From: an uncultured Pseudomonadota bacterium
GTDB taxonomy: Bacteria > Pseudomonadota > Alphaproteobacteria > RF32 > CAG-239
Reading direction: 5' to 3'
NCBI GenBank assembly: GCA_902763155.1
Contig: CACWQS010000004.1
Span: 62,001-126,000 of the forward strand
DNA length: 64,000 bases
Shown: piece after piece, positions 37,639 through 63,239 of the stretch
Layout: every line of letters begins with the position of its first letter
How positions within the stretch are numbered: position 1 is the stretch's first letter
Made by a program: the position numbers and the translations under genes
The notes under the pieces: model-generated
What the model was told of the DNA's origin: nothing
The model's database searches: none
Seen by the model: the letters and a program-made list of their open reading frames with translations, nothing else

Positions 37639-39804
37639 TTATTTACGTTCCTTTGCCGGCATTTCTTCCGGTGCTTTCTGCACCACCTTAATCTGCTCGG
37701 TTACAGGTTTATAAATCGTTTGTTGCCACGGGCTTTCTTCAACATATTCTTGCCCGCAAATACAAATACCCAAACTGCGTAAAGCTGTTTCCGTAGGGAT
37801 AAACGCATCTAAGCCGTCATTAGTGCGAATTCCCGAATGTGCCATGCCGTTAACGGTGCAATCTTTGTAGAACAAAGCACCGCCAACCGTTACATTTTGC
37901 ACAAATGTATTGGCTAGGATTTCTGCACCTTTTTCTTCGGTGTAACGATATCCTTCAATTTTGGCACTGTTTTCAAGATAATTTTCTCCATCTTTGAAGT
38001 CTTTAACATCAAGCAAGCCTAAAGTCAAATAACCGTTACGCCCAACTTCCGGCAAATTCAAATTAAGTGCCAGCGGAGTGTATTCAGTAGGCTGATCGAG
38101 CATCAAAAGCGCGGTATTTTTGCTCGGATTAACCCGAACCGCACGTGCATTCAGCATAATATTTTGTATTGTCTTAACAGTGTAATTATTGCTGTTCGTA
38201 TCAATCAAATCGCCCGAAGTTAAAATAAAGCGATCCGAAATCAGCAAACCTGCACCTTTGCGGCCGTTCGGACTATCAATTTGCACAACTGATGAGCGCA
38301 TACGATAAACTGTTTCCGGCGTTAGGTTTTGACAAGGGTTGGAGGTAACAACACATAAGTTTTCCAAAGCAGTAACATCGCCGGTGTCAATCCATGTATC
38401 ATCAACCACTTGGCATTGCCCGTCTTCACGGACATTACCGTTTTCATCAATGCAAATATCTACAACCTCGTGGCTGGTAACAACATTACCGGTTTCTATT
38501 ACCGCCGGTTCTGGTGCGCAACCGCATGTAGGCTGACATTGCGCAATATCAATCCCCGGACGGCTGATTTCACAACTCTTTGCACATTCATATTCTTTTA
38601 AATAACCGCATTTCATCGGGTTTAATGCACGCTCTTCTTCAATCAAAGCATAACGTTGCGCTGCCAAGCTAACCGGATCTACTCGCATGGCCAGCTGGTC
38701 TTCAAACCCAGGTAATGCACGCAAATTACTTACGGCATCGGCAAACGCACGTTCAATTAACTTAACTTCGCCGTTAACCTCACCTTGGTAAAGTTCGCCA
38801 TAACCGGTACTTTCACCCTTCCAATATACGGTATTTTTAGTTAAATCCATCAAACGCCATACCACTGTCATTTCGGAAGTGCCGTTACGTTGGTCATTTT
38901 TAGAAGCTCTGTCCCAATCATATTCATCACACACATTCATGAAATAATCGGTAATTTCCGCCGTCAACACATACTCCGGCAATTCGGTCGGCACAGTTTG
39001 CAAACACAAATCTTGCGGCATCGGCAAAACCTTGTAGCAATCACCGGTAACTTCTTCAAATACAGATGTAAATTTGATGTTCTTCTCCATAATGCGGCCG
39101 CTGTTTAAATTTGCTTCTTTGTTGAAACGGCGACAACCGAAAATACGGAAACGATAGTTACCTAAACGACTGCTGTATGGACCGTCAATGCCGTTATTTT
39201 TAATGCGAAAATCAACATGGTCAAGCGCCAGAGGTGCTAAAGCGCAACAATTATGCTGCATTGCCGCATATATAGCCGGCTGATACGGCACATAATTTTT
39301 GATAAGCGGAGTTTGAACATATTCAATCTTACGCTCTTCGCATTTTTTGCAAGGTCCGGGGAATAAACTTCCGTCTTTCGAACAATTTACACAAGGATCA
39401 CCGCCCAGCAGACTTCCGTCTTTTGAGCAATTCACACAAGGCGCTCCGCCAAACAAACTTCCGTCTTTCGAACAACTGACGCATGGTCTGCCACCGAAAA
39501 GGCTGCCGTCCCTATCTTCTTTTGGCTCTTGTGCCGTTTGTTCAGGCTGAGCCATTGGCGCCATACCGTATTGTGGCTGATATGGAACTGTTTCATAAAC
39601 AACCATTCCGGCAGGCAAACTTTGCACTTGCGGCACATTTGGCTGCACATCACTACGAGGACCGGCGATTTTTTGCGAATAACTGTTCGCATCACGATAA
39701 GCCCCGTTTGCTGCATAATAGCCTTGCGCTCCGGCTGAACCAACCATGGCACCGGTGCTTAAAAAAGCGGCTAATGCGTATAATATATGTTTTTGTGTGT
39801 TCAT
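37639..39804 (-). CDS. Secreted protein with four CxxC repeats and a dead trypsin-like domain
   Basis: 721 aa, not recognised as a known family. Residues 1-26 are a signal peptide ending in AGA. Residues 99-155 hold four tandem 15-16 residue units of the form DGSLFGGxPCVNCSK, each with one CxxC. A middle region (about 170-400) is Cys- and aromatic-rich. Residues ~505-690 resemble a chymotrypsin-fold protease (SSVVQIDSPNGRKGAGLLIS), but the catalytic positions are replaced: TSGDLID for TAAHC, KNTALLML for the Asp strand, and VGGALFYK for GNSGGP. It is third in a lipoprotein-comM operon, 12 nt after comM. Confidence 0.75.
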   Translation of the reverse strand: MNTQKHILYALAAFLSTGAMVGSAGAQGYYAANGAYRDANSYSQKIAGPRSDVQPNVPQVQSLPAGMVVYETVPYQPQYGMAPMAQPEQTAQEPKEDRDGSLFGGRPCVSCSKDGSLFGGAPCVNCSKDGSLLGGDPCVNCSKDGSLFPGPCKKCEERKIEYVQTPLIKNYVPYQPAIYAAMQHNCCALAPLALDHVDFRIKNNGIDGPYSSRLGNYRFRIFGCRRFNKEANLNSGRIMEKNIKFTSVFEEVTGDCYKVLPMPQDLCLQTVPTELPEYVLTAEITDYFMNVCDEYDWDRASKNDQRNGTSEMTVVWRLMDLTKNTVYWKGESTGYGELYQGEVNGEVKLIERAFADAVSNLRALPGFEDQLAMRVDPVSLAAQRYALIEEERALNPMKCGYLKEYECAKSCEISRPGIDIAQCQPTCGCAPEPAVIETGNVVTSHEVVDICIDENGNVREDGQCQVVDDTWIDTGDVTALENLCVVTSNPCQNLTPETVYRMRSSVVQIDSPNGRKGAGLLISDRFILTSGDLIDTNSNNYTVKTIQNIMLNARAVRVNPSKNTALLMLDQPTEYTPLALNLNLPEVGRNGYLTLGLLDVKDFKDGENYLENSAKIEGYRYTEEKGAEILANTFVQNVTVGGALFYKDCTVNGMAHSGIRTNDGLDAFIPTETALRSLGICICGQEYVEESPWQQTIYKPVTEQIKVVQKAPEEMPAKERK

Positions 39805-62343: not shown

Positions 62344-63057
62344 ATGAAAATTATCCAACATCCGTTACCTTTTTGGGAAGAACGTCCGCGAGCCATCGAT
62401 TCGCTGGTCTTACACTGCAGTGCTCATAATCCGGAAGACATGATTAAAGTTCTGTTTGCCGAGAAACTGAGTTCGCATTATATTATCGGCGCAGACGGGC
62501 AAGTTTTTCAACTGGTGCCGGAAGAAAAACGTGCCTGGCACGCCGGTAAAAGTTTTTGGCGCGGAGAAGAAAGTCTGAATCAACGTTCCATCGGGATAGA
62601 GTTAAGTTCACCGAGCATGGGACAAGAGACTTATCCGGCAAAACAAATCCAAAGTTTAGAGCGCTTGTGCAAAGATATTTTGCGGCGCCATCCGGCAATC
62701 AAAGCGCAAAATATTGTTGCCCATTCTGATGTGGCTCCTACTCGTAAGCCTGATCCCGGCATAGCTTTCCCGTGGCAAGAATTGGCTGAAAAAGGTATCG
62801 GTTTGTGGTATGATCTGGCAAACGCCACAAAGATTAAAGAAACTAATGTAGCGGTGTTATTATCAGAAATCGGTTATGATACAAGCAATCTACCGGCGGC
62901 GGCATACGCCTTTTGCCGTCATTTCGCCCCAAAATATGTGGTAAGGTGTGATAGTATTTCTCACCTTATAGAAAACGTCTATCCGGCAGATTTTGTGCTT
63001 CCTGCGGAAGTATTGCCGATTTTGCGGGCTGTGGTTTACAGTTATCGAACATATTAG
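62344..63057 (+). CDS. AmpD-like N-acetylmuramoyl-L-alanine amidase
   Basis: 237 aa amidase_2 (zinc amidase) protein without a signal peptide, so probably cytoplasmic. It would cleave the amide between (anhydro)MurNAc and the stem peptide. Motifs: LVLHCSAHN (zinc His), SSHYIIGADGQVFQLVPEEK, RAWHAGKSFWRG, SIGIELS and IVAHSDVAPTRKPDPGIAFP (zinc and catalytic residues). The C-terminal ~75 residues are a helical extension (PG-binding-like). With anmK and the ROK kinase elsewhere in the window it suggests wall recycling. Confidence 0.88.
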   Translation: MKIIQHPLPFWEERPRAIDSLVLHCSAHNPEDMIKVLFAEKLSSHYIIGADGQVFQLVPEEKRAWHAGKSFWRGEESLNQRSIGIELSSPSMGQETYPAKQIQSLERLCKDILRRHPAIKAQNIVAHSDVAPTRKPDPGIAFPWQELAEKGIGLWYDLANATKIKETNVAVLLSEIGYDTSNLPAAAYAFCRHFAPKYVVRCDSISHLIENVYPADFVLPAEVLPILRAVVYSYRTY

Positions 63058-63104: not shown

Positions 63105-63239
63105 TGTGTATAAGTTGGTGGATAAATTGTTGATAACCTATTTATAATCCTGAGGATATTTTGTTTATAAGTATGTGGATTAGTTGTTTATAACTTATGA
63201 ATAAGTCTGTGAATAAACTGTTGAAAAGCTTGTGCAAAA
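63105..63239 (+). repeat. Phased array of DnaA-box-like 9-mers
   Basis: Twelve head-to-tail 9-mers like TGTGNATAA start at 63105, 63117, 63128, 63139, 63151, 63162, 63174, 63185, 63196, 63208, 63219 and 63231, each 11 or 12 bp apart. TGTGTATAA (63105) and TGTGAATAA (63208) match the DnaA-box consensus perfectly. Seven more have one mismatch and three have two. The array fills the intergenic space between two convergent genes. It is a candidate origin-type or DnaA-titration locus. Confidence 0.7.

Follow-up and report, generated by a model that had tools for sequence, protein, structure and literature searches.

The array and its surroundings

The window, the whole 64,000-nucleotide stretch analysed here, corresponds to C4:62001-126000 of a 1.47-Mb assembly of 21 contigs that we call G000. 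Near its right end two genes converge, an amidase gene on the + strand and an FAD-dependent oxidoreductase gene on the - strand. The space between their 3' ends is occupied by an array of twelve DnaA-box-like 9-mers resembling TGTGNATAA, all in one direction on the + strand (63105-63239). The features, by position, are:

62344..63057, + strand: gene for an N-acetylmuramoyl-L-alanine amidase (PF01510), which converges on the FAD gene and is not a conserved neighbour
63105..63239, + strand: array of 12 head-to-tail DnaA-box-like 9-mers at 11/12-bp steps
63105..63113, + strand: box 1, TGTGTATAA, perfect
63117..63125, + strand: box 2, GGTGGATAA
63128..63136, + strand: box 3, TGTTGATAA
63139..63147, + strand: box 4, TATTTATAA
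63151..63159, + strand: box 5, TGAGGATAT
63162..63170, + strand: box 6, TGTTTATAA
63174..63182, + strand: box 7, TGTGGATTA
63185..63193, + strand: box 8, TGTTTATAA, same letters as box 6
63196..63204, + strand: box 9, TATGAATAA
63208..63216, + strand: box 10, TGTGAATAA, perfect
63219..63227, + strand: box 11, TGTTGAAAA
63231..63239, + strand: box 12, TGTGCAAAA
63244..63996, - strand: 3' portion of the gene for the FAD-dependent oxidoreductase (PF21688), the conserved neighbour, which continues beyond the window end; its stop codon abuts the array

An earlier note on this DNA had described twelve head-to-tail 9-mers at 11-12 bp steps, two of them perfect, and these positions were confirmed exactly. 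The successive steps are 12, 11, 11, 12, 11, 12, 11, 11, 12, 11 and 12 bp (mean 11.45), leaving 2 or 3 bp in all eleven gaps between boxes. Relative to TGTGNATAA, two boxes have no mismatch, seven have one and three have two. The same note had called the array helically phased. At 10.5 bp per turn a step of 11.45 bp drifts by about 33 degrees per box, which amounts to about one full turn across the array, so that the term fits only in part and the 2-3 bp gaps describe the arrangement better.

Runs of boxes were scored as chains, with +1 per match, -1 per mismatch and 3 subtracted per box, and with steps of 11 or 12 bp only. The array reaches a chain score of 34 with TGTGNATAA-type boxes. No chain of 10 or more was found in the rest of the visible genome (1.40 Mb of the 1.47-Mb assembly, that is, all but the 72 kb of C2:240001-312000), and none of 9 or more in simulated sequences (nine 1.5-Mb Markov genomes of orders 1, 3 and 5, and three of 0.5 Mb trained locally). 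The window contains 77 single DnaA boxes where 70 are expected, which is no enrichment, so the signal of the array lies in clustering and spacing. Elsewhere in the window, a 45-bp tandem repeat of about 2.5 copies with 81% matches is present at 39365-39475.

The array in related genomes

A DNA similarity search with the array recovered two relatives only, and the sequence-only models R1 and R2 were used in its place. Relatives were surveyed with the R2 array model together with a protein search with the FAD gene, which covered 21 same-genus genomes with a readable flank. In 12 of the 21, an array of 2-19 boxes at 11/12-bp steps lies near the 3' end of the FAD-dependent oxidoreductase gene. It abuts the stop codon in nine genomes (G000 with 12 boxes, G003 with 8, G010 with about 10, G012 with 4, G014 with 5, G015 with 19, G017 with 2, G018 with 7 and G025 with 13), and in three others it is at most 1.6 kb from the 3' end (G002 with 3 boxes, G005 with about 12 and G009 with 3). 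The boxes even overlap the final codons of the FAD gene in G012 (L356), G017 (L012) and G018 (L361), and thus the coding end itself contains box sequence there. The other nine genomes have no array beside the FAD gene, and a model search found no long array elsewhere in them. Because at least nine same-genus genomes are without an array at this site, it must be dispensable or mobile. Elsewhere in the family, the FAD loci of other genera showed no such array. Weak R1 pair matches in other genera were set aside, their adjacent genes sharing no single conserved setting; two-box R1 matches occur at about chance level and were excluded from the evidence.

Aligned over their whole length, arrays from different species match poorly; the motif and the 11/12-bp step are nevertheless kept genus-wide, while the identity of the FAD protein falls to about 70% across the genus. 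The comparison in relatives that the earlier note had proposed thus found boxes and spacing strongly conserved in the genus. Array-bearing genomes are scattered over the genus in the FAD-protein tree, the deep forks of which are poorly supported. This suggests that the array may be an ancestral feature of the genus that was lost or moved several times. As judged by its boxes, it is a second, genus-level DnaA-box locus besides oriC.

The gene opposite FAD is the amidase in G000, fmt in G015, pth in G012, G017 and G018, and an unnamed gene in G003, G005 and G025. Since this neighbour varies between genomes, what persists is the array together with the end of the FAD gene. At loci with both neighbours clear, the flanking pair is usually convergent, which makes promoter control by the array unlikely. 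Short runs of three to four boxes at about 11-12 bp steps were also found just after parC in G013 (L141:1503-1535), where the run is upstream of pheA, and in G004 (L150:1259-1300). Possibly they are a relocated small version of the array.

DnaA bound at the array might do a different job from the control of initiation, such as regulation of adjacent genes, halting of forks or transcription between convergent genes, or chromosome organisation. The location where two genes converge, often directly behind a terminator-like hairpin, is in line with such a role, as are the runs after parC in both genomes and upstream of pheA in one of them. However, the opposite neighbour varies together with its promoters while the array stays, and a gap between two 3' ends should hold no promoter. 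We consider a role of this kind unlikely.

Replication origin and GC skew

The usual origin neighbourhood in Alphaproteobacteria comprises dnaQ-coaE / rho, trmE, gidA, gidB, parA and parB, and hemE often adjoins it. In G000, dnaQ and coaE (- strand) diverge from rho (+ strand) at C2:197390-197802, followed by trmE, gidA, gidB, parA and parB. These genes span around 196-235 kb of C2, and the array, on the separate contig C4, is outside this neighbourhood. The remark in the earlier note that dnaA, hemE, gidA and parAB are absent near the array was correct: dnaA is on C8 and parB on C2, and hemE was not found in G000. The coaE-rho gap contains two perfect and five one-mismatch DnaA boxes in mixed orientation, and it ties with the array as the densest DnaA-box cluster of the visible genome (weighted score 13 each, the next being 6). 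The raw GC-skew minimum of C2 falls at 197755 and the change-point of the strand-corrected third-position skew at 197098-198429. Boxes upstream of rho stand at nearly equal distances from it in most same-genus genomes with a readable upstream region, the exception being G007, which has none there. G061 belongs to the family and has a contig of 392 kb, on which three signals coincide with rho or lie no more than about 4 kb from it, namely the skew minimum (189558), the change of sign and the top box cluster; the skew also flips at rho in G007 and G016. The chromosomal oriC is very probably the coaE-rho gap on C2, and the array, located elsewhere, is very probably not the chromosomal origin. It is unusual that the longest ordered box run of G000 lies outside the origin, while the oriC boxes are few and of mixed direction.

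Could the array be a second, backup or lineage-specific origin, where DnaA oligomerises and opens nearby DNA? On C4 the gene-strand-corrected GC3 skew is minus-leading before, and plus-leading after, a stretch at about 113-125 kb, a weak change of the origin type, and the raw minimum of this contig, at 126879, is 1.7 kb from the array. Long unidirectional DnaA-box runs are also known from the halves of E. coli oriC (PMC10316083). Against this, G000 and most relatives examined have a canonical oriC with conserved box positions, the skew flips at rho in G061, G007 and G016, and in G000 the flip at coaE-rho is stronger than the weak one near the array. G025, with its 13-box array, shows no flip beside it: the right side is strongly minus-leading, the left flank being only 5 kb long. 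Moreover, other origin-type flips occur on C2 and C3, which indicates that flips also mark rearrangements. Because the array has acquired a different left neighbour in this lineage, because the C4 flip resembles those on C2 and C3, and because G025 has none, we infer that the weak flip on C4 is a rearrangement boundary. Origin function explains no observation beyond this flip and is not needed otherwise; we regard it as quite unlikely.

The earlier note had raised an origin in an unusual setting, to be judged by a skew flip and by conservation of the 9-mers and their spacing. The outcome was mixed: the conservation part stood firmly, whereas the skew part came down to the weak flip in G000 only. 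An origin at the array was given up as the main reading in view of the canonical oriC at C2:197390-197802, with its conserved boxes and skew minimum, and of the lack of a flip in G025. Further sharp changes of strand-corrected GC3 skew in G000 are located on C1 at ~97 kb (+ to -), on C3 at ~58 kb and on C7 at ~11 kb, and suggest inversions or a terminus. Gene order is scrambled relative to G061, and synteny with that genome did not place the array relative to oriC.

When 289 genomes of the class were searched with R2, long box runs in a single direction turned up in a few unrelated lineages. The one in G389 is at the local skew minimum of that genome and so is probably its oriC; it serves as a positive control, in which the R2 model and the skew test recognise an origin where one is present. 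G266, which belongs to a different alphaproteobacterial family, has eleven perfect TGTGCATAA boxes with steps of exactly 11 bp at two contig ends (L372:1552-1670 and L364:5-123). One of these ends lies next to fabI, and in a relative, G367 (L369), that gene is accompanied by four perfect boxes. The array of G266 is probably longer and interrupts the assembly. Two genomes of one shared genus, G182 (L365:1478-1607) and G401 (L366:1315-1567), have 12 and about 23 DnaA-box-like 9-mers at ~11-bp steps, in each case next to the same gene, named by eye as an M23-type peptidase.

A putative DnaA-titrating locus and its known counterparts

The boxes of the array match the oriC boxes of the genus, with a common consensus and common tolerated substitutions. 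Changes of position 4 from G to T or of position 7 from T to A account for 15 of 31 one-mismatch array boxes, 60 of 82 in oriC and 321 of 1824 in the background (arrays against genome background, Fisher p = 1e-4). Background near-matches are the fairer comparison here, since the frequency matrix, from 95 boxes chosen by pattern, is partly circular. By eye, the DnaA of G000 ends in a canonical-looking domain IV. In vivo, E. coli DnaA favours paired boxes with 2 or 3 bp between them (PMC11317965). From the identity of the motif and the normal domain IV, DnaA would be expected to bind the array, presumably with its protomers in order.

Repeats that bind a different protein, and resemble DnaA boxes only incidentally in AT-rich DNA, would be compatible with the two mismatches in three of the twelve boxes. 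Yet the array boxes share both consensus and substitution pattern with the conserved oriC boxes, and their gaps equal the known spacing of DnaA pairs, which leaves such a protein very unlikely. A neutral tandem-repeat expansion or functionless relic, to which the absence of the array from several species and the rearrangement of neighbours at it might point, is extremely improbable, as adjacent boxes and spacers differ (Tandem Repeats Finder detects only about two copies) and motif and 11/12-bp step persist across the genus despite the poor alignment of the arrays and an FAD identity as low as ~70%.

The reading that we favour, and hold to be probable, takes the array as a DnaA-binding locus of the chromosome, distinct from oriC, that would act like datA, titrating or inactivating DnaA. 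Each replication of the array would create about twelve new DnaA sites that share one direction and have 2-3 bp between them, and DnaA would assemble on them head to tail. DnaA would in this way be withdrawn from oriC, and the neighbouring AAA+ domains of the bound protein may hydrolyse ATP faster. The next initiation would be delayed, and the array would exert negative control of initiation. As a locus of the datA type should, the array clusters DnaA boxes in intergenic DNA that is not a promoter and lies outside oriC. A titration or control site like datA, the other proposal of the earlier note, thus fits what can be read from the genomes: an array outside oriC, conserved in the genus, intergenic without a promoter and absent from some species. 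More tentatively, it may represent a dedicated alphaproteobacterial DnaA-filament locus outside the origin, in which a polar run of up to 19 boxes would nucleate a head-to-tail DnaA polymer and thereby inactivate or sequester DnaA without IHF, with a box number tuned in each species.

Whether DnaA titration times replication has been a matter of debate for decades, and E. coli has supplied most of the evidence. In the open-access literature searched, no datA-like locus was named in Alphaproteobacteria. A natural locus with 0 to 19 boxes at one fixed place in one genus would offer a comparative test of the titration model.

In E. coli, datA titrates DnaA and promotes the hydrolysis of DnaA-ATP (PMC10380432, PMC5835720). 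Both datA and the array are non-coding intergenic clusters of DnaA boxes away from oriC and downstream of genes; no sequence relationship is claimed. Whereas datA has about five boxes, the array has 12 (2-19 in relatives) in a uniform one-direction run at 11/12-bp steps. Also, datA needs a single IHF site, while the only exact match to the IHF consensus near the array (63123-63135) falls within the boxes, and such matches are common in the window. An IHF site was therefore rejected as support for datA membership, the match being part of the boxes. In the halves of E. coli oriC (R5M-tau2-I1-I2 and C3-C2-I3-C1), same-direction low-affinity boxes guide head-to-tail DnaA oligomers (PMC10316083). 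Each run has its boxes in one direction, like the array; however, the halves belong to an origin with an unwinding element, while the array is outside the skew-defined oriC, longer and in one direction only. DARS1 and DARS2 of E. coli are likewise intergenic DnaA-box loci outside oriC that tune DnaA. Their core requires boxes I and II head to head (PMC10380432), and all twelve boxes of the array are head to tail, which disfavours a DARS identity. Finally, DnaA binds in vivo to the double boxes of E. coli (purH and others), whose 9-mers stand 2 or 3 bp apart (PMC11317965); these are single pairs, while the array extends to a run of twelve between convergent genes.
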